64,000 nucleotides of DNA from Solibacillus sp. R5-41 (GTDB lineage Bacteria > Bacillota > Bacilli > Bacillales_A > Planococcaceae). The translations under genes were made by a program, and so were the position numbers. Shown piece after piece: positions 2,808 through 58,772 of this stretch. The DNA is taken from positions 3,588,001-3,652,000 of the forward strand of contig NZ_CP024123.1 in the NCBI RefSeq assembly GCF_002736105.1, written 5' to 3'. Each line of letters starts with the position of its first letter. Positions within the stretch are counted from its first letter, which is position 1. Below the pieces are notes generated by a model, which was not told the DNA's origin, made no database searches, and worked only from the letters and a program-made list of their open reading frames with translations.

Positions 2808-2979
2808 ATCAATTACGCCTCGGCATAATTGCCGTCCAGATTTTTTTCGAGCACGCTCGAAAACTCCTTTAAAAATCTGTGACATTCAGCCGGGGTTTGA
2901 ACCCCCACTGAATTAAGGGCATACTCGGAATTCATCCCCCACTTATAGAAGTGGAGGACTTCTGCCGAAACAAGTTAAA
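2808..2979 (+). repeat. Composite multi-hairpin intergenic repeat, copy R1 (modules A, E, B)
   Basis: Orientation A to B on the plus strand. Module A: AATTACGCC/GGCATAATT stem, then CAGATTTTT...AAAAATCTG enclosing TTTCGAGC/GCTCGAAA. Module E: ATTCAG-GGGG-tttgaa-CCCC-CTGAAT. Module B: CCCCCACTT-atag-AAGTGG followed by the end CAAGTTAAA. It lies between the terminator of the TasA-like gene and the TapA-like gene. Confidence 0.85.
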
Positions 2980-3038
2980 GTTATATGTTGAGAAATATAT
3001 ATAAGGAAGAGTACCAGCGGATTGGTGAAATAAAATAA

Positions 3039-3061
3039 GGGAGGAGAAGGGCTCTCCTCCC
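3039..3061 (-). terminator. Terminator after the TasA-like gene
   Basis: Perfect nine-base-pair stem GGGAGGAGA/TCTCCTCCC with a five-base loop, followed on the minus strand by TTATTTTATTT. It begins just after the stop codon and should make most tasA-like transcripts monocistronic. Confidence 0.85.
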
Positions 3062-3075
3062 ATTATTTGATGAAT

Positions 3076-3690
3076 TTATTTGGCTACGCCATCACCTTGT
3101 TTAGCTTCAAAGTTCCAAGTCAATTCCAAAGAATCGCCTTGGAATTGGTTTTGATCCGCGTCATTTTCAACAAATTCAAATTGGACCGCCAGTGTGTCAG
3201 TATCTCCAGTTTTCAAACCACCTTGTTCTTCAAACCATGGAATAAAGATTTTATTGGCAACAGCGTCTGGTGTCATACCCTGCAAATCTGCAAGAGTGGT
3301 TTTGTAAATCACATTGCCCGCTTCAGTCCATGGTCCAGAAATATCTTTATCTGGATTCCACATGAAGTTAACTCGGATATGTTTTCCGAAATCTTCTACA
3401 TTATCACCTTTTGCATCCGTTACAGCGTATTTTGTTTCAAGCAACACATTTGCAATGTCGAGTGTTCCATCATTTTTTAAATCAAATATTCGAGTCATCC
3501 AGTCTCCAGGCTTAATATTATCTACATTAATAATTTCCGTAGGGTTTAGTGATAAATCCAATGTACCTGCAGCGAAAGTATTCGTACTTGTTTCTGTATC
3601 ACTGAAATAAGCATAAGTTCCTCCACCGATCATACTTACAGCTAATGCTCCAGTTGCGATACCCATTGCTAACTTCTTTTTAAGATTCAT
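3076..3690 (-). CDS. tasA: TasA/CalY-like amyloid fibre subunit (SipW-dependent signal peptide)
   Basis: A 204-residue secreted protein of the TasA/camelysin family. It begins MNLKKKLAMGIATGALAVS, with a long hydrophobic core, and continues into GGGTYAYFSDTET, the diagnostic SipW-type leader and cleavage region. A shorter paralogue-like phrase, KPGDWMTR, is shared with the LPATS protein of the same locus. In Bacillus the mature subunit polymerises into extracellular fibres of the biofilm matrix (family knowledge); CalY-type members are of similar length, while B. subtilis TasA is longer. Start at 3690 is set by GGAGG at 3699-3703. It is transcribed first in the locus and has its own terminator, which fits a major structural protein made in excess over sipW and the TapA-like protein. 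Whether it is closer to TasA or CalY cannot be settled by eye. Confidence 0.9.
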   Translation of the reverse strand: MNLKKKLAMGIATGALAVSMIGGGTYAYFSDTETSTNTFAAGTLDLSLNPTEIINVDNIKPGDWMTRIFDLKNDGTLDIANVLLETKYAVTDAKGDNVEDFGKHIRVNFMWNPDKDISGPWTEAGNVIYKTTLADLQGMTPDAVANKIFIPWFEEQGGLKTGDTDTLAVQFEFVENDADQNQFQGDSLELTWNFEAKQGDGVAK

Positions 3691-3705
3691 TTTAATTTCC
3701 TCCAA

Positions 3706-4239
3706 TAAGTTTTAGTTTTTTTTAATTGCGTTTACTTTGCTCTTACCTGTGTCTTGTAAGAAATCGTTTTTCTTATTAGATGTTGGGTATGAGTTTTCTT
3801 TCACCTGTGATAAGGCAGTCTTGACTCTATGCACCATTTTCATAGTTCGGCAGCTTTTTAAAGCTTCCAAATTCCCTCCCCTTTTAGAAACTCACTTAAC
3901 TTACTATGAAAGTGGAACTATGTTCAGTATAGACAGAACCAAAAAATTCCTCTCCCCTCTATTGGGTGATTTTTGGCATTTTGACCTTCTACTTTCGTAG
4001 GGAAACTTATGGTATACTTTCGTTCCATTCCATATAACACCAATTAGTTATATACCCTTTATAAATGTTGATATATCAATGACTTACACCATTTTTTAGT
4101 GTCTAGTTTTTTTACAATTTCATGAATACACCGTTATTTTCCATTGAAATATTTTAAAAAAAATTTTAATTACCTCGCTAACTAACAAACCAAAAACCGG
4201 TAAATATCACCTTTATTTACTGTCGTATTTCCATTCATA
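3706..4239. other. Long AT-rich intergenic stretch upstream of the TasA-like gene
   Basis: No convincing gene, RNA or standard promoter was found here. It must hold the tasA-like control region, but I could not place boxes with confidence; short stretches of plus-strand open frame lack ribosome sites. Confidence 0.5.
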
Positions 4240-4728
4240 TTGAATGTTTGTGATGTTTATATTGACCTACCTTCCCATGTGCATTGGCATCTAGCGCATA
4301 TATTTCGTCATACGTTTGTTCTATTCAAAAGACAGGGGTTAATGATACTCCATTCGCGACTCGTTGGTTTTTTAAATCATGTTCGAATAATGAAATGGGT
4401 GCTGACTTTACTATTTCATATTCTTATGTGGACTTCGGATCGAATTAAGATGACTGGGACAACATCCATTCCAACTGCAGATCATTAGCATTCATTTTTT
4501 TGGCTAGCTCATCTAATTATCCTAATAATTCGTAGTGCTATTCCTACATCAATTTATTGTAAGAGTGGTGTAGCGAAATCAAATTTAGCCAACACATACC
4601 CTACTTTTAGTCCAATGGGTGCTGCAAAATTACTACTAATTGTTGTGTCTTTTGTAGTTACGGACATTCTATTCCAGCTATTAACGGTTCAACAGTCGTA
4701 TTTACACTATCGTTGTGTAGCAAATTGA
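4240..4728 (+). pseudogene. Possible decayed membrane-protein gene (one in-frame TAG)
   Basis: One frame stays open for 163 codons except for a TAG at 4486-4488. Both halves have protein-like composition with hydrophobic runs, for example LVGFLNHVRIMKWVLTLL before the stop and LLLIVVSFVVTDILFQLL after it. There is no good ribosome site at the first start. I do not recognise the family. It could be chance, but the second half in the same frame after the stop argues for a decayed gene. It sits in the 1.5-kb gap between divergent genes. Confidence 0.3.
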
Positions 4729-4990
4729 TATGAAACGACGAAATAAACAATAAGATTGCAAAGAAAGTGCTTTACACCCCCTAAAATCTGACAAAAAATC
4801 AAAAAATAATTAAGTATAATAAAAATAATAATAAAAAAATAAAAGAATTTTATTTTTTTAACTTTTTAACCCATTTTTAACATTTCTCATTTAAAATTTT
4901 TTTTAGAATCATTTTAAAAGAAGCATTTTTCAAAGTATTTATTTCCGAACCAAATTCTACAATGAATATACAGAAAATTACGTCATCTAA

Positions 4991-5173
4991 AGACTTTCAT
5001 TTCTTCGCGAACCTAAATTTAATTCCAAGCTAACATTATTACTAAAGAAGCAAAATAATAAGAACAGGAAAAGATTTTATTTTGGGAGACTAGGAAATAC
5101 ATCCTCTATTTGGGCACCTTGGATGTATGAAGTCAGTGGTGCAACCGGCCTCATTTCATTTGAAAGTCTTTAA
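4991..5173 (+). pseudogene. Possible C-terminal gene remnant
   Basis: A 60-codon open frame without a start codon at a ribosome site, ending in TAA 42 bases before the response-regulator gene. The last part reads GRLGNTSSIWAPWMYEVSG and then GATGLISFESL, with two Trp and a balanced composition unusual for AT-rich noncoding DNA. I do not recognise the parent family. It may be the tail of the same decayed gene as the fragment 260 bases upstream, or of another. Confidence 0.25.
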
Positions 5174-5215
5174 AAAGAAGCACTCTTTTAATTTGAGTGG
5201 GGAGGCAATTTATTG

Positions 5216-5869
5216 ATGAAAATCTTATTGGTGGATGAACAAGCAATCATCCGTAGGGGGTTAATTTCCATTCTATCATCAGAGGATAAATTGGAAATTT
5301 CCGGAGAAGCAAGTAGTACTCAAGAAGCACTTCATTTGATGCAAAGCGAAAGACCGGATTTGACTATTGTTGATTTCCATTTAGGAAATGAATGTGGATT
5401 AGAATTGATTAATGAAGCGAGAAAATTAGGATGTACCTCCAAATTTGCGATCCTTACCTATTCAAAAGATCGTGAATCATTTCAACGCGCAATGGCAATG
5501 GATGTAGATGGCTATATTTCACTAAACTCACATCCCGAAGAACTCATTTATGCCTTTCAATTGATTCAAAAAGGAAGGAAATATTATGACCCGGACATAA
5601 TAGACATGCTCGTGCAAACACAAAAGAAACACCGAATGGATACCAACCTTGTAGAGCTTCTCACTTCTAAGGAAAGAGAAGTATTGCAAAAACTTGGGAT
5701 GGGATTTTCGAATAAACAAATAGCCAAAAACCTATTCATTTCAGAAAATACGGTGAAAAAGCATGTTAGCCAAATTTTATCGAAATTGGACCTTAGTGAT
5801 CGTACACAAGTTGCGCTCTATGCGAATGAAACAGGATTGGTACAATATAATTATGTTGTGCCGTTTTAA
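5216..5869 (+). CDS. Orphan NarL/LuxR-family response regulator with atypical receiver
   Basis: A 217-residue two-domain regulator. The receiver (about residues 1-120) has the acidic pair D7-E8 and the phospho-acceptor Asp53 (TIVDFHLG). Thr is present in AILTYS, but the segment that normally reads GYLLKD is GYISLN, so the conserved Lys is replaced by Leu. The C-terminal LuxR helix-turn-helix (about 148-205) is intact: LTSKEREVLQKLGMGFSNKQ, then ISENTVKKHVSQI. No histidine kinase lies next to it. ATG at 5216 follows GGGGAGG by ten bases; an in-frame TTG three bases earlier is also possible. It is divergent from the fibre locus, so control of that locus is a natural guess but unproven. Confidence 0.88.
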   Translation: MKILLVDEQAIIRRGLISILSSEDKLEISGEASSTQEALHLMQSERPDLTIVDFHLGNECGLELINEARKLGCTSKFAILTYSKDRESFQRAMAMDVDGYISLNSHPEELIYAFQLIQKGRKYYDPDIIDMLVQTQKKHRMDTNLVELLTSKEREVLQKLGMGFSNKQIAKNLFISENTVKKHVSQILSKLDLSDRTQVALYANETGLVQYNYVVPF

Positions 5870-6055
5870 TAATGCGTTCCTAAAACTTAAACTAGTATTG
5901 CATGCTGGGAAATAGTTTTAACAATCTTAAATATTCTCGTACTCTAAGCTTGCGAAGAGAAGAAAAGCGCTTATTTTGATAGGGACTAACTATTGTCACA
6001 CACCTTTTGTCTATTAACAGTAACTGTAGCCAAGCTAACCCTCTTCTCCAAAAAA

Positions 6056-6101
6056 AAAGCACTCAAACAACGGATTTTCTCCTCCGTGTTTGAGTGCTTT
6101 T
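6056..6101 (-). terminator. Terminator of the glycolytic operon (after eno)
   Basis: Twelve-base-pair stem AGCACTCAAACA/TGTTTGAGTGCT (6059-6070 and 6087-6098), followed on the minus strand by a run of T. It sits shortly after the eno stop codon. Confidence 0.9.
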
Positions 6102-6114
6102 AAAATTGAATAAA

Positions 6115-7449
<1,335 letters not shown>

Positions 7450-7487
7450 CTAGTTGCACAAGCTATATAATTAGCCAAAATCAATAA

Positions 7488-9032
7488 TTAATCTTGATTT
7501 GTTGGCAAAATTAATGATTTCCCTGTCATTTCAACAGGTTGTTCAATTGTTAATAACTGTAGCATTGTTGGTGCTAAGTCTGCTAAAACGCCATCTTGAT
7601 GTAATACCACACCCGGCTTCGTCACAATAACAGGAACCGGATTTGTCGTATGGGCTGTCATCGGATGATCATCTAGTGTTATGACCTCATCTGAATTTCC
7701 GTGGTCCGCTGTAATAATTGCCTTACCGCCTTTTGCGATAATTGCATCTACCACTTTCCCTAAGCATTCATCTACAACTTCAATCGCTTTAATTGTAGGC
7801 TCTAGCATACCTGAGTGTCCAACCATATCTGGATTGGCAAAGTTTAATATAATTGCATCAAATTTATCTGCTGCAATTGCTTGAAGCAGTGCATCTGTCA
7901 CTTCATAAGCACTCATCTCAGGCTGTAAGTCATACGTCGCTACTTTTGGCGAATTAATTAAAATACGCTCTTCCCCATCAAAATTAGCTTCACGACCACC
8001 GCTCATAAAGAACGTTACGTGCGGATATTTCTCCGTTTCGGCAATGCGCAATTGCGTTTTACCTGCCTTCGAAATAACTTCACCTACTGTATTATCGAGG
8101 TTATTTGATTGGAACGCCACCTCTGCATGCACCTCATCACTATAGTGCGTGAATGAGACGAATTTTACGTTCGATGGTTGCTTGTTTGAAAGCTCGAAAC
8201 TTGCAAAGCTTTCATTCGTAAATACAGTTGAAAGCTGAATTGCACGGTCTGGACGGAAATTAAAGAAAATTACTGCATCATTTGTATCGACTGTCGCAAC
8301 AGGTGTACCTTCTTGTGTAATGACAAATGGTTGAACGAATTCATCATATACAGTTTGTTCGTATGATGTTTCTACACCTGCTAATGCAGAAGTAGCCGTT
8401 TGACCGATGCCATCTACTAACGCTTTATACGTTAGCTGTACGCGTTCCCAACGTTTGTCGCGATCCATAGCGAAATAACGTCCATGAACACTAGCAAATT
8501 TACCGATGCCAATTTCCTTCATTTGCTTTTCTGTTTCTATAATATAATCACGTGCAGTCGCAGGACCAACATCACGACCATCTAAGAAACCATGGACATA
8601 TACTTCACTTAAGCCGTTTGCTTTTGCTAATTTTAACAAGGCAAACAAGTGCTCATAATGACTATGAACTCCGCCATCTGAAAGTAAGCCCATTAGATGA
8701 AGCTTGGAGCCATGTGCTTTTGCATGCTCGACAGCAGATAAAAACTGTTCGTTATGGAAAAAGTCTCCCTCACGAATGGATTTATTGATGCGCGTTAAGT
8801 TTTGGTAAACAATACGGCCAGCACCAATATTTAAGTGCCCTACTTCAGAGTTCCCCATTTGTCCGTCTGGTAGTCCTACTGATTCTCCGCTCGCTGTTAA
8901 TGTCGCGTGCGGATAAACGTTCCAGAAACGATCGAAATTTGGTTTATTTGCTTGTGCTACGGCATTTCCCTTTACCTCTTCTCGAAAGGCAAAGCCATCT
9001 AAAATAATTAATGCAACGGGTTGCTTAGGCAT
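7488..9032 (-). CDS. gpmI: 2,3-bisphosphoglycerate-independent phosphoglycerate mutase
   Basis: A 514-residue Mn-dependent mutase of the alkaline-phosphatase fold that interconverts 3- and 2-phosphoglycerate. The N-terminal metal site LIILDGF and the phosphoserine site [14 protein letters not shown] (Ser near residue 62) are present. So are the second-domain sequences [21 protein letters not shown] and, near the C-terminus, TADHGNSDE and [11 protein letters not shown]. This form is Mn- and pH-sensitive in Bacillus, which ties it to sporulation and germination (family knowledge). It overlaps the end of tpiA by eight bases, implying translational coupling. GGAGG precedes the ATG. Confidence 0.97.
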
Positions 9033-9786
9033 TTGCTGCCGCCTCCAATAATTTCATATAAGAATCTGCTTGTAGGCTTGCACCGCCGACAAGTGCTCCA
9101 TCAATATGCTCTTTTCCTAAAAGTTCTACGATATTTTCTGGCTTTACGCTGCCGCCATACTGAATACGAATCGCTTGCGCTGTTTCCATACCGTATAATG
9201 TTTCAACTACGGTACGAATTGCACCGCATACAGCATTCGCATCATCTGCTGTTGCCGTTTTGCCAGTTCCGATTGCCCAGATTGGCTCATAAGCAAGAAC
9301 CATATGCTCCACTTCTGTTGGTGTAAAACCATCTAAAGCTTTCGTAATTTGGCTCGCTACTTTTTTCTCAGTGGCACCTGCTTCACGTTCTTCAAGTGTT
9401 TCTCCACAGCAAATTATTGGTACGATGCTATGATTTAATGCCGCGCGTACTTTTTTGTTTACGGCTTCATCTGTTTCATTGAACATTTCACGACGCTCTG
9501 AATGGCCTAAAATGCAGTAATCTACCTGAATATTAGCTAGCATGGCTGGACTAATTTCCCCTGTAAATGCCCCTTCATCTTCAAAGTGCATGTTTTGTGC
9601 GCCAATTGCTAATGAAGAATCCTCTGCTGCCACTACTAACGTTGGTAAGTATAATGCTGGTGCACAAATGACTGCATCTACTTTATCTGGAGAAGGAATC
9701 GCTTGCTGAATGGCTTCAACAAAGTCAACCGCCTCATCAAATGTTTTATACATTTTCCAGTTTCCTGCTACTATTGGTTTTCGCAT
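9025..9786 (-). CDS. tpiA: Triosephosphate isomerase
   Basis: A 253-residue TIM barrel that interconverts dihydroxyacetone phosphate and glyceraldehyde 3-phosphate. Catalytic residues are visible: Lys in AGNWKMYK, His in ILGHSERR, Glu in [13 protein letters not shown]. The phosphate loop YGGSVKPEN and GALVGGASL are intact. ATG at 9786 with GGAGGGAT upstream is preferred over the TTG at 9789. A composite repeat of about 170 bases separates it from pgk upstream, which is unusual inside this operon. Confidence 0.97.
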
Positions 9787-9843
9787 CAAAAAATCCCTCC
9801 ATCTATTTTATTTGCCGAACTTGGGTTTCCCACTATAGTTAAG

Positions 9844-10016
9844 GGTTGATTTCCATTTCGGTACGGCCGCTTTCCGCGGGCACAGCTCCAACTAACTTAT
9901 TTCGGGCCAACACGATGTTGGTCACGAAGGCGTTGTCACAAGACGTGACGGTTTTAGCCTTCGTTCCTAAGCTGCTATTCCCGCAGGAGTCGCCTTCCCT
10001 CCATTCCAATCAACTT
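9844..10016 (+). repeat. Composite intergenic repeat, copy R2 (modules C and D)
   Basis: Starts with module C (CGGCCGCTTTCCGCGGGCAC and CTCCAACTAA), a type resembling GC-richer intergenic repeats common in Bacillaceae. Then comes module D: CCAACA/TGTTGG (9907-9921), CGAAGGC/GCCTTCG (9925-9931, 9957-9963) and GTCAC/GTGAC (9935-9939, 9945-9949). It ends with CCCGCAGGAGTCG. It lies between pgk and tpiA within one operon. Confidence 0.8.
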
Positions 10017-10089
10017 GCATTTCTATAAAGTCTTTTTAACCCTAAATTTAAAAAATAATCCGATTTGTATAACCTTTAAATGCGCTTTA

Positions 10090-11274: not shown

Positions 11275-11431
11275 AAAGTAAATCCTCCTTTAATTTTCAT
11301 CGGATATTTCCAGATTTAAATACTATTTATTTTTGCTCTTTATTAAAATTTGAATATGACTATATAATTTGCAATAAATATACCTTCTGTTGATGTACGC
11401 TTTCAATTATAGATTCTAATAATTTCATGTT

Positions 11432-11463
11432 AAAAAGAGCGGCTAGGTAATCCCTTCCGCTCT
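11432..11463 (-). terminator. Terminator between gap and pgk
   Basis: Stem AGAGCGG/CCGCTCT (11436-11442, 11457-11463) followed on the minus strand by TTTTT. It lies downstream of repeat R3, so gap-cggR messages would carry R3 in their 3' untranslated end. Partial read-through would feed pgk. Confidence 0.75.
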
Positions 11464-11551
11464 ATACCCTCATATATTATAATGGTTGCTTCTTTTAAAG
11501 GCTATACTTTTTATGTCGAATAACAAGTAATATGTCACACTTTTTCCTTAC

Positions 11552-11742
11552 ATCAATTACACCTATGCTAATTCTTGTTCAGATTTTTTCGGACTAGCTC
11601 GAAAAAAACTCTAAAAATTTGTGGCATTCGCCGAGGACTTTAACTTGATTCAGACGGGGTTTGAACCCCCTGAATGAAGGTCATACCTGGCATACATCCC
11701 CCACTTATAGATGTGGGAGACTTCTGCTGAAACAAGTTAAAA
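11552..11742 (+). repeat. Composite intergenic repeat, copy R3 (modules A, E, B)
   Basis: Degenerate module A (ATCAATTACACCT, CAGATTTTTT...AAAAATTTG around a CGAG-type hairpin), module E as ATTCAG-GGGG-tttgaa-CCCC-CTGAAT, and module B as CCCCCAC-ttatagat-GTGGGAG with the terminal CAAGTTAAA. It occupies most of the gap-pgk intergenic region. Confidence 0.8.
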
Positions 11743-11763
11743 TTAAGTATGACACATTTCAAC

Positions 11764-12777: not shown

Positions 12778-12841
12778 GTGTAATTCCTCCAGTTAAATAT
12801 ATTTATTTAAACAGTCTGTGCTTGAGCACGTCGTTAAAAAC

Positions 12842-13876: not shown

Positions 13877-13900
13877 AAAACCACCTACTAACTCTATATT

Positions 13901-13937
13901 GGACTATATATGTCCCTCTTTGTAATTTTATGTCCCA
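13901..13937 (-). promoter_or_regulatory. CggR operator
   Basis: On the minus strand two half-site units occur: TGGGAC-N6-TTAC, four bases, then AGGGAC-N6-AGTC. This matches the B. subtilis operator pattern of two CGGGAC-N6-TGTC units spaced by four bases (family knowledge). It lies downstream of the promoter, as in B. subtilis. Confidence 0.85.
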
Positions 13938-13968
13938 CTTGGTGCAAAAAAAATGAATTTCTAATGCC

Positions 13969-13997: not shown

Positions 13998-14034
13998 TAA
14001 AAATTGATCAAATTTTAGCGTTTAGGCGCTAGTT

Positions 14035-15422: not shown

Positions 15423-15457
15423 GTCATCTCCCCCTCTCCGAAAGCGACTTGGCATTG

Positions 15458-15570
15458 TTAGCCAGAGTTCCCTTACTTCAAGCTAGGTTTAAATACCCAC
15501 TGAATGAAGGGCACATTTGGCAATTATCCCCCATTTATAAAATGGAGGATTTTTGCTGAATCATATTAAA
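15458..15570 (+). repeat. Composite intergenic repeat, copy R4 (end of D, modules E and B)
   Basis: Begins with the D-module end AGCCAGAGTTCC, continues with a degenerate E module ending ACTGAATGAAGGGCA, then B as CCCCCAT-ttataa-AATGGAGG. Relative to R1 the B stem changes CAC/GTG to CAT/ATG with pairing kept. It lies between divergent genes. Confidence 0.7.
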
Positions 15571-16389: not shown

Positions 16390-16401
16390 AAATTCTATAA
16401 C

Positions 16402-16458: not shown

Positions 16459-16504
16459 TAATCAATTATGCCTTAACATAATTGTATCCAGATATCGCTG
16501 AATG
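16459..16504 (+). repeat. Repeat fragment R5 (module A1)
   Basis: ATCAATTATG...CATAATTG followed by TATCCAGAT, the start of module A, then truncated. The stem ATTATG/CATAAT differs from ATTACG/CGTAAT of R7 by a pairing-preserving C-G to T-A change. Confidence 0.6.
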
Positions 16505-35554: not shown

Positions 35555-35727
35555 TCATTTATACCTCAGCATAAATTCGAATCAATTATACCTCGAAAAA
35601 ATCTGTGACATCCGCCGGAAGCTCTGGACCAACACGATGTTGGTCACTCAGGCGTTGCCGCACGACGCGGCGTTTTTAGCCAGAGTTCCACTATTTTAGC
35701 CGGGGTCTGAACCCCAGTTAATCAAGT
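35555..35727 (+). repeat. Composite intergenic repeat, copy R6 (modules A, D, E)
   Basis: Degenerate module A (ending AAAATCTGTGACATCCGCCGG), a full module D and a shortened E (GGGG-tctgaa-CCCC). D stems: CCAACA/TGTTGG (35629-35643), CTCAGGC/GCCAGAG (35647-35653, 35679-35685), GCCGC/GCGGC (35657-35661, 35667-35671). It fills the hprK-lgt gap. Confidence 0.85.
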
Positions 35728-40390: not shown

Positions 40391-40582
40391 ATCAATTACG
40401 TCAAGGCGTAATTGCGTCCAGATTTTTTTCGAGCTCGCTCAAAAAGCACCCTTAAAAATCTGTGACATCCGCCGGGGCATTCACTTGATTCAGCCAGGGT
40501 TTGGCCCCACTGAATAAAATTGAATATTTAGCATTCATCGCCCACTTATAGATGTAGGGGAATTCTGCTGAAACAAGTGAAA
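40391..40582 (+). repeat. Composite intergenic repeat, copy R7 (modules A, E, B)
   Basis: Module A with AATTACG/CGTAATT, CAGATTTTTTT...AAAAATCTG around TTCGAGC/GCTC, module E as ATTCAG-CCAGGG-tttgg-CCCC-ACTGAAT, module B as GCCCAC-ttatagat-GT and the end CAAGTGAAA. It lies between convergent genes and is bracketed by two hairpins. Confidence 0.8.
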
Positions 40583-41243: not shown

Positions 41244-41403
41244 CTTACTTCTCACTTTCAGCTTAAATTTTCTTTACCATTTTAACATACTCATATTCAT
41301 GATGGACAAAATTCCAGCATTATTTCAATAGTTAAGACGAATTTATTGCCTACTAGTTGCATGTGTTTATATAAAAAGTATAGTTCGTTACTGAAACGTA
41401 GGA

Positions 41404-41454
41404 TTTATTCCCATTTCAGTCCGGACGCTTTCCGCGGGCACAACTCCAACTAAA
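41404..41454 (+). repeat. Repeat fragment R8 (module C)
   Basis: CCATTTCAGTCCGGACGC, then TTTCCGCGGGCAC and CTCCAACTAA, matching the first 45 bases of copy R2. It lies between the DedA and S9-peptidase genes. Confidence 0.7.
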
Positions 41455-41494
41455 TTGCATTATATTCAAATTTTCACATCACCTATTTATAACC

Positions 41495-48031: not shown

Positions 48032-48044
48032 TTGCATCCCTCGA

Positions 48045-48473: not shown

Positions 48474-48484
48474 AGCTTTTCCCC

Positions 48485-50172: not shown

Positions 50173-50223
50173 AAAATCACCTCTCTTTTTAATGTAAGCT
50201 TTCCCTTTCAATAGTACACTAAA

Positions 50224-50257
50224 AAAAAGTACACTCAAAGTCATGAGCGTACTTTTT
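50224..50257 (-). terminator. Terminator of lplJ, beyond repeat R9
   Basis: AAAAAGTACACTCA/TGAGCGTACTTTTT with one mismatch, followed on the minus strand by further T. It separates lplJ (and its repeat) from the Bce-type operon. Confidence 0.8.
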
Positions 50258-50260
50258 CTA

Positions 50261-50395
50261 ATCAATTACGCCTTGGCGAAATTGCGTCCAGATTTGGAAT
50301 TGTACTTGCACAATTAACTCCCTTCAAAATCTGTGACATCCGTCGGAGACTTTATCTTCATTCAATGGGTGTTTGTACACCCATTGAATGAAGAT
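50261..50395 (+). repeat. Composite intergenic repeat, copy R9 (modules A and E)
   Basis: Module A has AATTACGCC/GGCGAAATT, then CAGATTT...AAAATCTG around AATTGT/ACAATT, an inner stem quite different from the CGAGC stem of R1. Module E is extended to a perfect 18-base-pair stem (50354-50371, 50378-50395). Lies in the lplJ 3' untranslated region. Confidence 0.85.
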
Positions 50396-50400
50396 ATTTG

Positions 50401-51393: not shown

Positions 51394-51534
51394 GGTTCCT
51401 CACTCCTTCACAATTTCTCCATATTTATTTTAACGCAAATTAGGCATTTTGTGTTGACGAAATAAAACTGTTATAATACAATGATTAATATCAACACAAG
51501 TCATATAACAGACTTAAAAAAAGGAGGAGCCACA

Positions 51535-51660
51535 ATGTTAGAAAACGTAGTCGAATTTTTCAAAAACTTACCAGATAAAATTTGTGTACAATGCGGTGAT
51601 AAAATTGAAGAACAAAGCGAGTGCTACAGCAACAATTGTGAAAAATGCAACTCTCTTTAA
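51535..51660 (+). CDS. yhfH: YhfH-family small zinc-ribbon-like protein
   Basis: A 41-residue protein with strong AGGAGGAG upstream of the ATG. It contains CVQCGDKIEEQSEC and NNCEKC, five or more Cys in two knuckle-like pairs, which suggests a bound zinc. It matches the small YhfH family in length and pattern (from memory). Divergent from lplJ and followed by a strong terminator. Function unknown. Confidence 0.85.
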   Translation: MLENVVEFFKNLPDKICVQCGDKIEEQSECYSNNCEKCNSL

Positions 51661-51742
51661 TAATCGTTGATACATCGTTAGACATTATAATTTGCTAACA
51701 CTTTCATCTTTGATAAAGATGAACCTATAACAGCTTACATTC

Positions 51743-51777
51743 AAACCACGAGCCCGCTCAAAACTCGTGGTTTTTTT
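51743..51777 (+). terminator. Terminator of yhfH
   Basis: AAACCACGAG/CTCGTGGTTT followed by seven T. Confidence 0.9.
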
Positions 51778-51894
51778 ATTTTGAAACTCTGCATGAGCAT
51801 TTCAGAAAATAAATCTCCTGTATGGTAGTTCTATCCATCAAATTTCAAATTCTAACCGCCACTTTCGACTTTCTATCCGTTTAAATGAAAAAAC

Positions 51895-51920
51895 GTCCTG
51901 CCGCAATATAGCAACAGGAC
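51895..51920 (-). terminator. Terminator of yhgE
   Basis: GTCCTG/CAGGAC stem with a 14-base loop, followed on the minus strand by GTTTTTTC. Confidence 0.65.
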
Positions 51921-51937
51921 ATTTCCATCTATTTGTA

Positions 51938-54127
51938 TTATTTACTTTCTACTTGATGCTTTGAATAACGCTTTTTATGAATTAACGTAAAGTAGCTAAA
52001 CGTAATTGCTAAACAACTTAATAAATACGTACCTAATATCGCCCAGTTAAATTGTAAGAATGTGTTATCACCCATTGAAATGGCAGATTTAAAGCCTTGA
52101 ACTGAGAACGTCATCGGTAAAAATGTATTGAAAATATGAAGTTGCTCTGGCAATAATTCAAGTGGGAATGTTCCCGCACTTGTTACTAATTGGAAAATCA
52201 AAATTAAGATTGCAATGAAGCGACCTGGATCCCCCAATATTGACACAAGCATTTGAACTAAAGCTAAAAACGTAAAGCTTGTTAAAATCGTTGTAATAAT
52301 AAATTGAGGCATGCTTCCAACTTCTAAACCTAATACTCCTACAACAATTGCAATCGTAATAATTGATTGAATGATCCCTACGACCGCTAATACAGACACC
52401 TTACTCACAAACCAGCTTGCACCGTTTTTTGGAATAATGGCTGGCTCGACTAATGGGAAAACAATTGAGATTAATAGCGCACCTACGAATAGACCCAATG
52501 AAATAAAGTAAGGAGCAAACCCTGTTCCGTAGTTTGGTACATGGTTAACCGCTGTTTTTTCAACTTCCACTGGTGAACCGACCATATTATACGTATCTTC
52601 TGTCGGATTAATATCTATCTGACTACTTGCTTCTGTTAAATTTTCCGTTAACGTCGCTGTTCCATCTGCTAAATCTTTTGTACCATCCACTAAAGATGAA
52701 GATCCTTCTGCTAATTCGCCCGATTTTTCTACTAATAACGATGTACCGTCATTTAATTTATTCGAACCTGTTGCGAGTGTATTAAGTCCAGATGCAAGTT
52801 CATTTGCTCCTTGTGACGCATCGCCAGCACCTTGGCTTAACTGTTGTAATTTTTCCGCTAAAGTTGAATTCCCTGCTGCTAAAGAATTTGCCCCTTCAAG
52901 CAATTGTGAAGAATTGTTTGTAAGCTCTTCAACACCTGCTGCAAGTTGCTTTTGACCCTCATTTAGTTTTTCTGCACCTTCGCTAAGTGCTGTAATTTTA
53001 TCATCAAGTCCATTTGTCCCCGTATGAAGTTGGTTTAATCCACCACTCACTTGCGAACTACCTGCTTGTAATTGGGCTAAAGTCGTTTTTAATGCCGCTT
53101 GACTTTCTTCTGGTAATGATGGAATAACCGCTTGTAGCTGCTGCTCTAATTGATTAATACCACCTGTAATATTTGCAGAACCGTCCGCTAATGCTTGTAT
53201 TTTATCATCCATATTGGCAGTTCCTTGAGATAATGCTGCTAAATTAGAAGATAGGCTTGCCTGACCTGTTGTAAGCTCTTTTTGTCCACTTGCAACTTGA
53301 TCAACACCAGTAACATATTTGTTAAGCCCTTGATGTAATGCCTCTGCACCTTGTGATGCGGTTGTTGCACCTGCTGCAAGCTGATTACTACCATCTGCAA
53401 TTTTTGCCACACCAGTTGCTAATTCATTTGCCCCTGTTGCTGCTTTTTGTGCACCTTCCGTTAATTCAGTCGAACCATCCGATAATTCAATCGTGCTTGA
53501 AGCTAATTGTTCTAAATACCCTTTTAAATCATCTGCACCGTCGACAATTTTTTGTGCACCTTCATCCAATTGACCTGCACCATCTGCCGCTTCAGTATAA
53601 CCATCACCTAAAGTTGTAATGGAATTGAATAATTCTTCAGCAAACGTCGCAGAAACTTGTGCATTTACTTCTGCTTTAATCATTTCCATTGCTGATTCCC
53701 CAATTTGAGCACTTAGGAAGTTAAAGCCCTCATTTGGAATGTATTCAATTTTTAACTTTTGAGGTGAATCATCTAATAACGTTGTCACATGCTGTGAAAA
53801 GTTTTCTGGAATTTTAATTAAAATATAATATTTCCGATCTTTTAATGCGTTTTCTGCATCTGATTGATCGATTTCTTCAAATTTAAATTGCTTACTTTTT
53901 ACAAGGTTTTCAACGAGTTCATCGCCGACTTGTAGCGACTCACCCTCCATCGTAGCACCTTTATCTTCGTTAACAATTGCCACTGGTAGGCTTTCTAAAT
54001 TGGCATATGGATCCCAAAACGCCCATAAAAACATTCCCGCGTAAAGCACTGGAACGAATAATACAGCAATTGTTGCCACGAGCATTTTTCGAGTTTTAAG
54101 TAATTTTAACCACTCTGCTTTAATCAT
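51938..54127 (-). CDS. yhgE: YhgE/Pip-family membrane protein
   Basis: A 729-residue protein. One N-terminal helix (about 15-37) is followed by a long extracytoplasmic region and then about five C-terminal helices (about 530-720), an ABC-2-permease-like layout. The region at about residues 190-470 is built of imperfect repeats such as ELATGVAKIADGSNQLAAG and GANELASGLNTLATGSNKL, about 11 residues per unit, likely a coiled rod. Related proteins include the phage-infection protein Pip and the type VII secretion subunit EsaA, plus exporters. GGAGG precedes the ATG. A likely operator for the neighbouring TetR protein lies just upstream. Confidence 0.9.
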   Translation of the reverse strand: MIKAEWLKLLKTRKMLVATIAVLFVPVLYAGMFLWAFWDPYANLESLPVAIVNEDKGATMEGESLQVGDELVENLVKSKQFKFEEIDQSDAENALKDRKYYILIKIPENFSQHVTTLLDDSPQKLKIEYIPNEGFNFLSAQIGESAMEMIKAEVNAQVSATFAEELFNSITTLGDGYTEAADGAGQLDEGAQKIVDGADDLKGYLEQLASSTIELSDGSTELTEGAQKAATGANELATGVAKIADGSNQLAAGATTASQGAEALHQGLNKYVTGVDQVASGQKELTTGQASLSSNLAALSQGTANMDDKIQALADGSANITGGINQLEQQLQAVIPSLPEESQAALKTTLAQLQAGSSQVSGGLNQLHTGTNGLDDKITALSEGAEKLNEGQKQLAAGVEELTNNSSQLLEGANSLAAGNSTLAEKLQQLSQGAGDASQGANELASGLNTLATGSNKLNDGTSLLVEKSGELAEGSSSLVDGTKDLADGTATLTENLTEASSQIDINPTEDTYNMVGSPVEVEKTAVNHVPNYGTGFAPYFISLGLFVGALLISIVFPLVEPAIIPKNGASWFVSKVSVLAVVGIIQSIITIAIVVGVLGLEVGSMPQFIITTILTSFTFLALVQMLVSILGDPGRFIAILILIFQLVTSAGTFPLELLPEQLHIFNTFLPMTFSVQGFKSAISMGDNTFLQFNWAILGTYLLSCLAITFSYFTLIHKKRYSKHQVESK

Positions 54128-54150
54128 TTATTCTCCTCCATTTAGTACTT

Positions 54151-54177
54151 GTTGACCAAAAACGTCATCTGGTCAAA
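54151..54177. promoter_or_regulatory. Probable operator upstream of yhgE
   Basis: TTGACCA (54152-54158) and TGGTCAA (54170-54176) form an inverted repeat, and the segment GTCATCTGGTCA is shared with the site upstream of the TetR gene at 54846-54880. Confidence 0.6.
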
Positions 54178-54187
54178 CTAGTGAAAA

Positions 54188-54219
54188 AAAATTCAATTAC
54201 ACCACGGCGTAATTGCGTC
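54188..54219 (-). terminator. Repeat fragment R10 (module A1) acting as terminator of yhgD
   Basis: CAATTACACC/GGCGTAATTG-type hairpin, with the TCAATTACaCC...GGCGTAATTGCGTC sequence of module A1. Read from yhgD the stem is followed by AATTTTTTTTC, so it has all parts of a Rho-independent terminator. Confidence 0.7.
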
Positions 54220-54240
54220 TTTTTAATATCCCCAAGTGGT

Positions 54241-54813
54241 TTATTTTTTTGCTAAACCACGGAATATTGTTTCTTTAAATAAAGCTAATATATCCTCTTC
54301 TTTTATTGGTTCTTCATGCGTCGATTGCCAGTCTACGATGAAAGCAAGATAGGTTTTAAATAGCATATAAGAAACATGTTCTTTATTGCATTCTATTATT
54401 TCATCCTTTTCAATCCCAATTTGAATTCGGGCAGAAATATAAGAAATAATTTCTCGTTCAATTTCTAAAAGCATCTGTTTTACTGCCGGCGTTCGTAGTT
54501 CTTTTTCCTCTTCTACGAGTTTGGCAAATAATAAATGGCGTTCTCTAAATTGAAGCATTTTCATTAATGAAGTATGAGCATTGTGCATAAAACTCGCATT
54601 GGAGTCAATCGATTTATCTGTTTCACTCTTCATTTCATCAATTAAATTGAGTACTACTTCTTGGAAAAGTTCTTCTTTATTTGCGAAAAACGTGTAAACC
54701 GTTCCCTTTCCAACATTCGCAATTTTAGCAACTTGCTCAATTGTCGTTGCTTTATAACCAAATAACGTGAAAGATTTCGTTGCAGACTGTAAAATTTCTT
54801 GACGTCGATCCAC
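54241..54813 (-). CDS. yhgD: TetR/AcrR-family repressor (YhgD-like)
   Basis: A 190-residue regulator. The N-terminal helix-turn-helix (about 8-50) reads ILQSATKSFTLFGYKATTIE and VGKGTVYTFFANKEELF. The remaining helices form the ligand domain; the ligand is unknown. Start is GTG at 54813 with GGAGG upstream. It is in tandem with yhgE as in B. subtilis; two similar inverted repeats near both genes are its likely targets. Confidence 0.9.
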   Translation of the reverse strand: MDRRQEILQSATKSFTLFGYKATTIEQVAKIANVGKGTVYTFFANKEELFQEVVLNLIDEMKSETDKSIDSNASFMHNAHTSLMKMLQFRERHLLFAKLVEEEKELRTPAVKQMLLEIEREIISYISARIQIGIEKDEIIECNKEHVSYMLFKTYLAFIVDWQSTHEEPIKEEDILALFKETIFRGLAKK

Positions 54814-54845
54814 TTACCCACCTCCATAAATAATAAATAAACGAG

Positions 54846-54880
54846 AATGACCAGAAAACCATTTCGGTCATCTGGTCATT
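54846..54880. promoter_or_regulatory. Probable TetR operator upstream of yhgD
   Basis: AATGACCAGA (54846-54855) and TCTGGTCATT (54871-54880) form a perfect ten-base inverted repeat with a 15-base spacer; the inner part contains the direct repeat GGTCA-TCT-GGTCA. Confidence 0.65.
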
Positions 54881-54911
54881 ATTATACACCGATTTTATTG
54901 AATTGCAATTA

Positions 54912-55412
54912 TTAATGATTATCTTTTTTCTCTGAATCCTTATTTTCGTCGTGCCCAGCTCCATGGTCCATTGAACTAGAGCTTCCATCCTCTAAAACTT
55001 TACTCATATCCGGGTTCCCAACTACTAACTCTTGCTTTGGCATCACATGTAATCCGCGCGCTGTTGTGTGGGCAAACATATAGTACACACCGTCCTGATC
55101 AAATGTATAATCGACCGCATAAACCCCGTCTTCTGTAAGTTTTCCGTCTATCATTTGACCGTCCTCGCGTAAGCCCGATTCCCACACTTCAAATTTTACT
55201 TCCTCAGCATCATCTACCGCTTCATCGCCTTGTGTAACACGTGCAGCAAGCTGAATTGTTTCGTTTACATTTAAATGCTCCGGTGTTTGAATTTCAACAA
55301 CAACTTCCACTGGCATTACACCATTATCTAATGTATCTACTTCTGGTTCTTCGCCTCCACAGCCAAATAATAATACCGGAATTGCTACTAAACTATACAT
55401 CCATTTTTTCAT
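54912..55412 (-). CDS. FixH/YtkA-like lipoprotein
   Basis: A 166-residue lipoprotein. The signal peptide ends in LLFGC, a lipobox. The central domain (about 30-130) is a beta-sandwich of the FixH/YtkA-like type: VEVVVEIQTPEHLNVNE, DGVYAVDYTFDQDGVYYMF. The C-terminal tail (SSMDHGAGHDENKDSE) is His- and Asp-rich and could bind metal (inference). It is last in a four-gene group with the kinase, regulator and propeller lipoprotein, overlapping the kinase by one base. A role in sensing or copper/redox chemistry is possible but not shown. Confidence 0.82.
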   Translation of the reverse strand: MKKWMYSLVAIPVLLFGCGGEEPEVDTLDNGVMPVEVVVEIQTPEHLNVNETIQLAARVTQGDEAVDDAEEVKFEVWESGLREDGQMIDGKLTEDGVYAVDYTFDQDGVYYMFAHTTARGLHVMPKQELVVGNPDMSKVLEDGSSSSMDHGAGHDENKDSEKKDNH

Positions 55413-56803
55413 TATGATTCCTCCATTATTGGGAGCGTAATAATTACGTCCGTTCCTTTTGCTAATGTACTTTCAATTTTTAGTTTGCCATGATGTTGTT
55501 TAACAATTTGTTCGACAATGGATAAACCTAAGCCACTGCCTCCATCCGATCGACTCCGCGCTTTATTGACACGATAAAAACGTTCTGTAATATGTGGTAA
55601 ATCTTCGGCTGGAATACCAATTCCACTATCAGTTACCGTAATGACTGCATCACTTCCAATTTCTTTAGAATGGATTAAAATAGCCGCGTTTTCCTGAGAG
55701 TAACGTACTGCATTTTCGATAACATTAATAAAAACTTGCTTTATTTTTTCTTCATCACCCATGACAATCAATTCTTCTTCAAGGCTTTGTTCAATTTGAA
55801 TACGTTTAGCTATTGCCTGATTTTGTAGCAATGACACTGCATCCCGTATCGTTTCAGCTAGCACAAGTGGCTCAGTTTCAGATAACGGGATTTTTTCATC
55901 TTTTCTTGCAAGCTGCATCAACTCATTTGTTAATCGCTCCATTCGAGCAGATTCACGTGCAATGAGCCCAATCGCTTCATCTCTTTTTTGATCTGATATA
56001 TACCCATTTTGAATTGCTTCACTATATCCCTTTACATAGCTAATTGGTGTACGCAACTCATGTGATACCGTTGCAAGGAATGACTTTTGTGCTTCATCTT
56101 CCCGTTGAATGGATTGGGCCATCTGATTAAAGGCGGTGGAAAGTGTGCCGATTTCATCCTTTGATGTCACATCAACTCTTGTTGCGTACTCTCCTTGGGC
56201 CATGTGATTCACTGCCTGTTGTAAATTAGCTAATGGCCGTAAAATTTTTCGCATTCCTTGGTACACAAAAAATGTCGCAACTAATAAAAACATTACCGCG
56301 CCCGTTATAAGCAGCACTACTTCTTCTTTAGCCAATTCCGAAATCTTTGCTAACGGATAATATAAATAAATAATTCCTTCCAAACGATTTTGGTCGGTAA
56401 ATGGCAAGATGACTGAAATAATTTGGCGTTCAAAACGTTTTTCAAAACCAATTTTTATTACAGCATTTCCTGCTATTAGTTGCTGACGTTCTGCCGGTCC
56501 AATTAACGCATCATAATCAACATCAAACGGGACACACGCACTCAGCTCACGTGGATTTCTCACCGCAAAAATAGGAATATTTGAATAGGCGGCGTAATTG
56601 TCAATCGCATCAATTAGTTCGTCCGTTACTTTTCCACCTTTATACATCGTTTGCAGCTTTTCGCCGACTTCTACCATCTTTATCTTCGTATCTTCAACAT
56701 AAAAGTGTTCATAAAGAAAGTCTGTAAATATGTACATGAAAACAACCGTCGCACTTAAAAATAATACAATTAGCAGCCAAATTTTCGAGGACAACTTTTT
56801 CAT
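55412..56803 (-). CDS. Sensor histidine kinase
   Basis: A 463-residue kinase: helix 1 (about 7-29), an extracytoplasmic sensor domain (about 30-155), helix 2 (about 158-180), HAMP (about 182-235), the His box FLATVSHELRTPISYVKGYSE (about 243-263) and ATPase motifs NVIENAVRYSQE, DSGIGIPAEDL and GGSGLGLSIV. It resembles ResE/PhoR/WalK-group kinases. Its start overlaps the regulator by four bases. Confidence 0.93.
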   Translation of the reverse strand: MKKLSSKIWLLIVLFLSATVVFMYIFTDFLYEHFYVEDTKIKMVEVGEKLQTMYKGGKVTDELIDAIDNYAAYSNIPIFAVRNPRELSACVPFDVDYDALIGPAERQQLIAGNAVIKIGFEKRFERQIISVILPFTDQNRLEGIIYLYYPLAKISELAKEEVVLLITGAVMFLLVATFFVYQGMRKILRPLANLQQAVNHMAQGEYATRVDVTSKDEIGTLSTAFNQMAQSIQREDEAQKSFLATVSHELRTPISYVKGYSEAIQNGYISDQKRDEAIGLIARESARMERLTNELMQLARKDEKIPLSETEPLVLAETIRDAVSLLQNQAIAKRIQIEQSLEEELIVMGDEEKIKQVFINVIENAVRYSQENAAILIHSKEIGSDAVITVTDSGIGIPAEDLPHITERFYRVNKARSRSDGGSGLGLSIVEQIVKQHHGKLKIESTLAKGTDVIITLPIMEES

Positions 56804-57492
56804 GTCGTTTTTTCAAAGCGGTACCCAATTCCCCACACAGTTTGAATGTACTCGCTTGCTGCTTTCGATTTTTTCCCTAGCTTGATACGCAATGTTTTAA
56901 TATGGGTATCTACTGTACGTGTTCCACCCGCGTAATTCAGTTCCCATATTCGTTCCAATAGCTGCTCACGCGAATACACGGTATTTGGATTTTGCATAAA
57001 TAAATGCAGCAACTCGAATTCCTTTAAAGTGAGCGACACCACATCATCATCAATGAATACTTTTCGAGAAATCTCATCCATTTTGATCACACCACATTGC
57101 AAAAAGTTCGCTTCCACCTGCTGAGTGGCAATGCCTGTTCTTCGTAATACCGCTTGAATTCGTGCTATTAATTCATTCGCCGTAAAGGGCTTGACGATGT
57201 AATCATCACCGCCAATAGTTAGCCCTTTTACTTTATCCTCATTTGCATCGCGTGCTGTTAAAAATATTACGGGAACTTGACATATTGCTTGAATCGCTTC
57301 ACATACAACAAATCCATCTTCCCCTGGCATCATCACATCGAGCAATACTAAATCAACTTGCTGCTTTGTCAGGATATGATACGCTTCTGTCCCATTCGCA
57401 GCCATTTTTATCGTGTAGCCTGATTGGGATAGTACAATGTCAATTAGCTGCCTCATATTTTCTTCATCATCTACAATTAATATTGTTACCAT
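56800..57492 (-). CDS. OmpR-family response regulator
   Basis: A 230-residue regulator: receiver with LIVDDEENMRQ, Asp in LVLLDVMMPGEDG, Thr in FLTARD and Lys in DYIVKPFTANELI; winged-helix domain with SLTKEFELLHLF-like core at SLTLKEFELLHLF and GGTRTVDTHIKTLRIKLG ending in VWGIGYRF. GAGGG lies eight bases before the ATG. It begins three bases after the propeller lipoprotein gene. Confidence 0.93.
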   Translation of the reverse strand: MVTILIVDDEENMRQLIDIVLSQSGYTIKMAANGTEAYHILTKQQVDLVLLDVMMPGEDGFVVCEAIQAICQVPVIFLTARDANEDKVKGLTIGGDDYIVKPFTANELIARIQAVLRRTGIATQQVEANFLQCGVIKMDEISRKVFIDDDVVSLTLKEFELLHLFMQNPNTVYSREQLLERIWELNYAGGTRTVDTHIKTLRIKLGKKSKAASEYIQTVWGIGYRFEKTT

Positions 57493-57495
57493 CCG

Positions 57496-58449
57496 CTATC
57501 CCTCCCTCACAAGCAAGTGAAATGGTCCTTTTTCTGTATGGACCTTTTTTTGAATTCTTCTATTATTAATAAAATAAATCGAATGATCGTCATAGCCTGC
57601 TACAACGAGTGAATCTTTAAAATGCGCTACGGCAAACGGATTCGCACCAATTTCAAGCTGCCATTCAATTATTCCATCCGTATTCACAACGTACAATATA
57701 TTTTCACCATGACTAACAACAGCAATTTCATCATCCCTTTGTGAAAAGCCAACTGGCATTAACGGCATTAGTATTTCTTTTATTTTTTCACCTGTAGATT
57801 GTGCATAAATATCGACGGTTTTATTGGGGCTATTTCCTTCACCATGTCCACCAACCCATAGTTCATCTCGTCCAGTAGGAATGACCAGGCCATGCGATGA
57901 TTTTGGTATCACCCATTCGTCTAAGATGGCCATTGTTTCAGTAGAAATAACTGAAAGAATCGTGTCTTTGTAATTGATCACATACAGCTTACCATCACTC
58001 ACCAACATTGACATTGGATAATTATGAAGCTTTACTGTATGCTGCAATTCCCCTTTCATCGTGTAACTTGTAAGTTCATTCGTTTTACTATTCGTTATAA
58101 ATATCTTTTCAGTTTGCGCATCAAAATAGGCGTTCGTTACACCTAATCCTGTACTGATTTCTTTCAAAAGCTTCCCAGTAGAAAGCTCATATAAATCGGC
58201 ATCTTTCAGTTGATGGCCGTACAATAAAATGGCATCTTTTCCAACTAATATGGCACCTGTATACGCTTTTTCTAAAGGCCACAAAGCAATTTCATTCGCT
58301 GATTGATCAAAAAATGTAATTGATGGCTCTATTATATTAACCGATGCGACGAATGATTGATGTGGGTCAATACGTTCGAAACGGTCATCTGAACAACCAG
58401 TAAGTATAAATACAAATAGAGAAAACAAAATGAAATGAGTTCGTTTCAT
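57496..58449 (-). CDS. YncE/YVTN-like beta-propeller lipoprotein
   Basis: A 317-residue lipoprotein: signal peptide with lipobox FILTGC, then repeated strands of a propeller, for example KIFITNSKTNELTSYTMKG, KLYVINYKDTILSVIS and DELWVGGHGEGNSPNKTVDIY. Such propellers bind partners or ligands outside the membrane. It is first in the group with the regulator, kinase and FixH-like lipoprotein, so it may be part of the sensing system (inference). GAGG precedes the ATG. Confidence 0.85.
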   Translation of the reverse strand: MKRTHFILFSLFVFILTGCSDDRFERIDPHQSFVASVNIIEPSITFFDQSANEIALWPLEKAYTGAILVGKDAILLYGHQLKDADLYELSTGKLLKEISTGLGVTNAYFDAQTEKIFITNSKTNELTSYTMKGELQHTVKLHNYPMSMLVSDGKLYVINYKDTILSVISTETMAILDEWVIPKSSHGLVIPTGRDELWVGGHGEGNSPNKTVDIYAQSTGEKIKEILMPLMPVGFSQRDDEIAVVSHGENILYVVNTDGIIEWQLEIGANPFAVAHFKDSLVVAGYDDHSIYFINNRRIQKKVHTEKGPFHLLVREG

Positions 58450-58551
58450 ATTTCGCCACCTCGCTATTAAGCGTACTAAATAATTGTGAAATTTGCATGA
58501 AAGGCGTGAGATAAAATTGTGAACAAATTAGGCTGCACGATGAAACTTAAA

Positions 58552-58594
58552 AAAATGCTGTACTAAAAGAGTTTGTCCTTTAGTACAGCATTTT
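58552..58594 (-). terminator. Terminator beyond repeat R11 (after cgoX)
   Basis: AAAATGCTGTACTAAA/TTTAGTACAGCATTTT, a perfect 16-base-pair stem followed on the minus strand by TTTTTTTAAG. Confidence 0.9.
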
Positions 58595-58600
58595 CATTCG

Positions 58601-58772
58601 AAATTATCTTCAATCAGCAAATATTCTCTCACCTCTATAGGTGGCGAGATGAATGCAAGTATAGCCTTTTTAGTGAACATCCCACCGCCGGCTAAATAGG
58701 GGCACTCTGGCAAAGAACGTCGCGTCCTGCTGCAACACCAGGATGACCTGCATCGTGCTGGCCCAAGCAAAA
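58601..58772 (-). repeat. Composite intergenic repeat, copy R11 (modules D and B, inverted)
   Basis: Reverse complement contains a full module D (58705-58762) aligned base for base with R6 in length, then the GCCGG junction, then module B as CACCT-atag-AGGTG. Lies in the 3' untranslated region of cgoX. Confidence 0.8.

Follow-up and report, generated by a model that had tools for sequence, protein, structure and literature searches.

A high-copy composite hairpin repeat in Solibacillus sp. R5-41, probably a non-autonomous IS200/IS605-type transposable element

Insertion sequences of the IS200/IS605 type are described as having neither terminal inverted repeats nor target duplications, as inserting 3' to a tetra- or penta-nucleotide, and as carrying hairpins at both ends, each with a guide at its 5' base (PMC7290912). 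We analysed a stretch of 64,000 nucleotides from Solibacillus sp. R5-41 (contig NZ_CP024123.1, positions 3,588,001 to 3,652,000; the window), in which a first-pass annotation had noticed intergenic repeats composed of hairpin modules in the order A, D, E and B. This A-D-E-B composite is probably a non-autonomous transposable element of the IS200/IS605 type, similar to the palindrome-associated transposable elements (PATEs). That it works like an IS200/IS605 element is firmer than that it is a member of the group, because no autonomous element with matching ends at both sides and no resident transposase were found.

Architecture, insertion sites and copy number

The A-D-E-B element is about 185 nt long, contains no genes and runs from ATCAATTACG to CAAG, with dozens of near-full-length copies in a genome of 4.28 Mb. 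Reading the named sites together with a repeat search of the window confirmed the modules, their order and most of the coordinates first reported. Seven of the eleven sites originally listed were recovered by R1, a sequence-only model built from 41 genomic copies, and two are short remnants of the A hairpin, whereas those at 9844 and 41404 were rejected as family members, both being copies of another repeat (GATTTCC..CCGCGGGC..). The consensus of the 41 copies is ATCAATTACGCCTCGGCGTAATTG-CGTCCAGATTTTTTTCGAGCTTGCTCGAAAA...AAAAATCTGTGACATCCGCCGGGGC-TTAACTTGATTCAG-CCGGGGTTTGAACCCCCACTGAAT...GGCATTCATCCCCCACTTATAGAAGTGGGGGACTTCTGCTGAAGCAAG. On the transposon strand (i.e. from B to A) the element reads TTTAA/CTTGCTTCAGC-AGAAGTC-(B hairpin)-GATGAATGCC-(E hairpin)-D-A-...-(terminal hairpin CAATTACGCC.GGCGTAATTG)-AT/, where slashes mark its limits. 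It has no terminal inverted repeats, as the ends ATCAATTACG and ...GCAAG are not complementary, and hairpins lie close to both ends, as in IS200/IS605 elements. Folded as single-stranded DNA, one copy (L032) gave z -3.72 at the left end and z -6.17 at the right end, and 88.2% of the cells of the named helices were paired, compared with 33-52% in slid versions. The loop of the E hairpin on the B to A strand (e.g. the reverse complement of window positions 2893-2906) reads GGGGTTCAAACCCC, which may resemble a tRNA T-arm.

The element is mobile. A sister genome of the same genus (G003) is collinear with window positions 6080-64000, in blocks of 78-94% identity, the site at 2808 lying outside this coverage. 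Both flanks of 22 of the 41 copies were present in the stretches of G003 compared, and the other 19 had none or one. At 15 of these 22 copies the syntenic site of G003 was without the element, and R1 matched at none of the 15 junctions; insertions of this kind, visible by comparing sites, had been proposed as a check in the first-pass annotation. Seven of the 15 junctions were gap-free within 15 nt (L047, L049, L051, L052, L063, L072 and L080). Four other sites held remnants or another element in G003 (L034, L037, L056 and L077), and three unclear ones (L043, L044 and L086), where R1 gave no match, were left out of the empty-site set; among these seven sites R1 gave two partial copies, at model positions 1-52 (L034) and 1-69 (L077). 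A full copy in both genomes was found at 0 of the 22 sites. The shortened G003 copy at the L034 site (L315, 9302-9352) is in the opposite orientation, which suggests repeated insertion at one place.

The reverse case was found at window position 12806/12807, where the window carries the empty site ...TTTAT/TTAAACAG and G003 the filled one, ...TTAT/ATCAATTACG...CTGAATCAAG/TTAAACAG; the filled copy contains, by eye, the structured RNA Bacillaceae-1 (RF01690). Larger composites with Bacillaceae-1 were also missing at syntenic sites of G003 (L024, 251 nt; L022, 269 nt; L060, 248 nt); such composites have also moved as units. A different element of 147 nt, with an A-type end and another hairpin (TTCAGTTGGC..GCCAACTGAA), was seen at L072 1971-2119, and it is not at the syntenic site of G003.

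The insertion rule was read from both sides of the junction. The five bases that follow CAAG in the 41 copies are T (39 copies), T (39), A (34), A (35) and A (32), and conservation stops there, while the bases preceding ATCAATT had no comparable pattern. For the junction 5-mers of the 15 empty sites of G003, 53 of the 75 positions agree with TTAAA, compared with a mean of 23.6 and a maximum of 34 when the same score is taken at 42 offsets lying further than 4 nt from the junction. Since TTAAA follows CAAG and is also present in the empty sites of the sister genome, the end that reads AAGTTAAA consists of CAAG and target, and the TTAAA formerly assigned to module B is target DNA. Read on the other strand, the element stands directly 3' of the fixed penta-nucleotide TTTAA. 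We found no target duplication at the exact sister junctions and no direct repeats beyond those of shuffled sequences; in the shuffle test the ends were located only loosely, with the 3' end wrongly placed in several copies, and the exact junctions supersede it. The derivation from IS200/IS605-type elements, first mentioned only as an alternative, is the better reading, given the lack of target duplication, the insertion next to TTTAA, the end hairpins and an IS605-like left end (see below).

The repeat is far more frequent than chance would give. With single copies as queries, the window's own genome (G000) gave 53 and 44 matches (40 candidates scored each), and R1 gave 176 matches at E ≤ 0.001, fragments included (150 of 2172 candidate windows scored). 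Across sixteen genomes of the genus, with 150 candidates scored in each, the R1 matches were also numerous in G003 (183), G021 (139) and G002 (137), and ranged from 4 to 28 in the other 12. Stretches of named genomes that contain a 20-base core of module A number at least 120; the records among the matches listed carry the names Sporosarcina, Solibacillus, Psychrobacillus, Metasolibacillus, Lysinibacillus, Filibacter, Siminovitchia and several Bacillus, and one further record, under the name 'Arthrobacter beigongshangensis', seems to be misnamed. Plasmid and phage sequences searched with one copy gave no match. None of the 41 copies was spanned by an open reading frame (ORF), and in 5 the overlap with a mechanically called ORF exceeded 60 nt. 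Several copies were seen after terminator-like hairpins with T-tracts, which would supply TTTAA.

Transposases, element ends and competing explanations

Module B is similar to the left end of IS605 elements with tnpA and tnpB from other genera of the family, and the likeness extends to the adjoining TTTAA. The Y1_Tnp domain was present in 97 of 151 genomes of the bacterial family. R1 matched 2 of 30 Y1 loci, L294 (E 3.5e-4) and L271 (E 3.7e-4), both with its B end and just upstream of tnpA+tnpB. We then compared the left-end consensus locally with 25 of the 29 tnpA loci (four fragmentary loci were omitted): three scored 64 (L321, the same locus as L271; L322; and L323, the same locus as L294; L322 and L323 are near-identical), two scored 45 (L332, the same locus as L268, and L336), and the other 20 scored 14-31. 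The junction reads TTTAAC in L271, L294, L322 and L268, and TATCAA in L336. The feet of the hairpins were read by eye in 23 loci, three of them without a class and several being copies within one genome (L329 and L330, with no recognisable left end, were omitted); the foot ended in GTC or TTC in 12 out of 12 TTTAAC elements, all with T at the next-to-last base, and 7 out of 8 TATCA-type elements had A there instead. An AGAA-type foot ending in TC was present in 32 of the 41 copies of the A-D-E-B element. Read in this way, the pattern of foot and target agrees with a possible guide function.

In the reading proposed here, a Y1 (HUH) transposase acting in trans would cut out single-stranded copies and join them 3' of TTTAA, and AGAAGTC at the 5' foot of the B hairpin would be the target guide. 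We infer that this transposase was afterwards lost or is decaying, and in the window's own genome it would have been lost.

Several results weigh against this reading. Eight of the 15 empty sites carry small gaps near the junction. The genome G000 had no match to Y1_Tnp (PF01797) or to the TnpB C-terminal domain at E ≤ 0.001 (other transposase types were not searched for), which extends to the whole genome, for these two domains, the earlier remark that no transposase is seen in the window; G002 and G021 had no Y1_Tnp match either. The sister genome G003 has one tnpA of the L271 type (68% identity) with a stop codon, followed by tnpB and without matching ends, and a second, separate tnpB with no tnpA match in the stretch examined; R1 gave no match in the stretch of the broken tnpA nor in four other transposase stretches. 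A comparison of TnpA/TnpB proteins with 287 sequences recovered only the two IS605-type loci of G003, L316 and L261, plus a piece of 29-31 residues in L158. In L294, L268, L261 and L316, the right end has a hairpin and then GTAGTTCA(C/A), which differs from the A end; scores of the right end against the IS605 loci compared were 16-28, and two exact patterns of the A module had 0 matches in 30 + 33 transposase loci and stretches. In this sample of genomes, autonomous elements share the left end and none shares the right one.

RNAalifold found almost no consensus structure in the whole alignment, and therefore we counted the named helices instead, in which covariation was only modest: 12 pairs were changed on both sides, compared with 7.1 ± 1.8 in shuffled and 7-11 in slid versions, and the helix of module D with the tip of B had 4, compared with 1.4 ± 1.0 and 1-5, respectively. 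Orientation differed between replichores in G000 (9+/18- in the first half and 23+/9- in the second, p 0.004; 59 copies among the matches listed) and in G003 (9+/15- and 21+/9-, p 0.027; 54 among the matches listed), in the sense expected of lagging-strand templates (PMC6006769). Where the flanking genes run in the same direction, 22 of 29 copies agree with this bias, and with convergent or divergent flanks 7 agree versus 5; gene direction may explain the bias equally well, the two being inseparable, and we therefore dropped the lagging-strand bias as evidence.

Among the other explanations, we regard as unlikely a chimaera in which a left end captured from IS605 is joined to an unrelated hairpin repeat (A) and moved by some mechanism that recognises A. 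A-type ends do combine with different left parts (at window position 50261 and in the second insert of L072), and none of the 30 + 33 transposase loci and stretches contained an IS605 whose right end is A-type, but insertion at the B end still obeys the IS200/IS605 rule. A REP/REPIN-like element that a domesticated transposase of the RAYT (TnpA-REP) type had spread would also be hairpin-rich, intergenic and high-copy, and the family commonly has Y1 proteins of about 200-260 aa whose Y1_Tnp scores are weaker and whose resemblance to RAYTs is one of length and score only. Such an origin is improbable for an element of about 185 nt with two different ends, of which the left one is IS605-like, and with a preference for TTTAA, in genomes (G000, G002 and G021) with no Y1_Tnp match at the same threshold.

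Conserved helices with some changes on both sides, an embedded Rfam RNA and the intergenic location could point instead to a structured RNA, or to a cis-acting mRNA or terminator element, kept by selection at each site with no transposon involved. The 22 sites compared, where G003 has no full copy and R1 finds only two partial ones, and the wide variation of copy number between genomes make this very improbable. Hardly any weight is left for a classical miniature inverted-repeat transposable element (MITE), which would depend on a DDE transposase, end in inverted repeats and duplicate its target: it would fit the high copy number, the lack of genes and the internal inverted pair CTTG.TTCAGC/GCTGA..CAAG next to TTAA, formed by module D and the tip of B (87.6% of cells paired), but ATCAATTACG and ...CAAG, the true ends, do not form an inverted repeat and neither the shuffle test nor the exact junctions gave a duplication (DDE transposases were not searched for). 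We keep the non-autonomous IS200/IS605-type element as the probable reading.

The Bacillaceae-1 module and the features of the window

Bacillaceae-1 RNA (RF01690) was described by Weinberg et al. 2010 (PMC2864571), and the one further mention found gives only a count of 10 motifs in a genome (PMC5764928). The family, which the first-pass annotation had not recognised, scored above its gathering score at three stretches of the window (Table 1) and gave 103 matches in G000, 99 of them over the cut-off (150 of 532 candidates scored). The 30 best copies were all located within one of three interspersed repeats: 23 inside the A-D-E-B element with an adjacent R1 match, 5 in the GATTTCC..CCGCGGGC repeat (L005, L007, L010, L019 and L026) and 2 in a third repeat (L011 and L028), the last two groups assigned by eye. 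In the 23 copies, the best adjacent R1 match was always on the strand opposite to Bacillaceae-1, i.e. in one orientation. By eye, the module takes the place of D in most of them and lies within the A hairpin in L020; one Bacillaceae-1 is nested in another in L003 and L012, likewise by eye. In a class-wide sample, Bacillaceae-1 was present in 67 of 299 genomes and 32 of 119 genera. Nine of the 28 loci listed adjoin what we take by eye to be rRNA or tRNA genes (L360, L361, L363, L368, L371-L374 and L376, in other genera), where the module is possibly in processing stems of rRNA precursors. We tentatively suggest that this Rfam sRNA could be a self-contained mobile hairpin cassette that enters structured repeats, itself and the vicinity of rRNA and tRNA genes, and that the IS200/IS605-type carrier spreads it; we hold this to be possible more than probable.

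Table 1. Copies, remnants and associated repeats at the sites studied in the window (positions within the 64,000 nt; E values from R1, bit scores for RF01690).
Feature	Position	Strand	Observations
A-E-B copy, D deleted, A to B orientation	2808..2974	+	E 2.3e-40; target TTAAA at 2975-2979
Different interspersed repeat (GGTTGATTTCC...CCGCGGGC...CCCGCAGG...CCAATCAACTT) with Bacillaceae-1	9842..10031, limits approximate		not A/D/E/B; not in G003
Bacillaceae-1 RNA module within the other repeat	9907..9973	-	74.2 bits
Full A-D-E-B copy	11552..11736	+	E 5.6e-38; G003 syntenic site without element
Remnant: Bacillaceae-1 end, E, B	15455..15565, limits approximate	+	R1 15468-15569, E 8.6e-13; different remnant at G003 site
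A-end hairpin remnant (site 16459)	16461..16495	+	repeat family D2, by eye; below R1 threshold; not in G003
Truncated A, Bacillaceae-1 (minus strand), E-type end ...AATCAAG	35581..35726	+	E 1.4e-3 (from 35587); then TTAG; not in G003
Bacillaceae-1 RNA module (RF01690)	35629..35695	-	73.1 bits, gathering score 35
Full A-D-E-B copy	40391..40577	+	E 1.4e-47; G003 site empty, small indel beside
Half of the same other repeat as 9842..10031	41400..41456		not A/D/E/B; A-module remnant at G003 syntenic site
A module and long E-type hairpin (TATCTTCATTCAATGGGTG..CACCCATTGAATGAAGATA), B absent	50261..50400	+	E 1.3e-22; then TTAAT
A-end hairpin remnant (site 54188)	54192..54219	+	repeat family D2, by eye; below R1 threshold
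Decayed copy: B/E remnants, then Bacillaceae-1	58605..58761	-	R1 58605-58700 minus strand, E 2.2e-5
Bacillaceae-1 RNA module (RF01690)	58695..58761	+	50.1 bits

The second interspersed repeat has ends near GTTGATT..AATCAAC and inner CCGCGGGC/CCCGCAGG, and occurs with or without Bacillaceae-1 (window 9842-10031; L005, L007, L010, L019 and L026); its presence or absence also differs from G003. The third repeat (GGCTAAGCACATGAG..TTTGTGCAAGGCCAGCC; L011 and L028) was seen at window positions 63011-63282, a stretch without counterpart at the syntenic site of G003. Finally, a c-di-GMP-II riboswitch (RF01786, 72.1 bits) lies at window positions 5076-5159.

Comparison with described systems

The first-pass annotation knew of no description of the family, and this stands for the whole element in the literature searched (titles and abstract openings, few subscription papers, ISfinder being outside the scope), while its Bacillaceae-1 module is the described RF01690. 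Against what is known, the A-D-E-B element is an ends-only element of the IS200/IS605 type that stands out for its copy number, for a right end to which no match was found and for the RNA module it carries. It offers a concrete case in which an ends-only single-strand transposon has multiplied in a large burst; the genome retains no detectable transposase of that type, and the sister genome supplies exact empty sites. The results also suggest that an Rfam RNA family is part of mobile repeats, at least in this lineage; 'sRNA' counts in genome annotation therefore need care. Composites of a carrier and an embedded RNA hairpin allow the spread of structured RNA cassettes to be studied.

The inner module of the element scores 50-74 bits as Bacillaceae-1 RNA, but it is only one module of the composite and also occurs in other repeats and, presumably, beside rRNA and tRNA genes. 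If Bacillaceae-1 is a mobile cassette spread by such a carrier, the IStrons, which combine a group I intron with an insertion sequence (PMC4227781), would be a loose comparison. Compared by description only, the bcr1 and Bhal-1 repeats of Bacillus (PMC2267715) are likewise intergenic stem-loop repeats of similar size, bcr1 differing in that a title cited in PMC2267715 calls it specific to the B. cereus group. REP/REPIN sequences with RAYT are also hairpin repeats between genes that a Y1 enzyme possibly moves in trans (PMC8266576, PMC3116915), whereas the A-D-E-B element is much larger and asymmetric, and the Y1_Tnp profile found no RAYT-type Y1 gene in G000.

The closest likeness at the left end is to the IS605 elements with tnpA+tnpB (L271, L294, L322 and L268), which share the TTTAAC left junction, a GAAGTC or GAATTC/AAATTC foot, the hairpin and GATG(A/G)AT; at the right end, L294 and L268 have ...GAAGCTCCCACTTC...GTAGTTCAC, whereas the A-D-E-B element ends CAATTACGCC.GGCGTAATTGAT. 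With the PATEs (PMC7290912) it shares the end hairpins, the lack of terminal inverted repeats and of target duplication, the insertion 3' to a fixed penta-nucleotide and the ends-only constitution. It differs from them in its high copy number, in a right end unlike any IS605 right end read, and in its composition, as about half of the unit consists of extra hairpin modules and many copies carry Bacillaceae-1.

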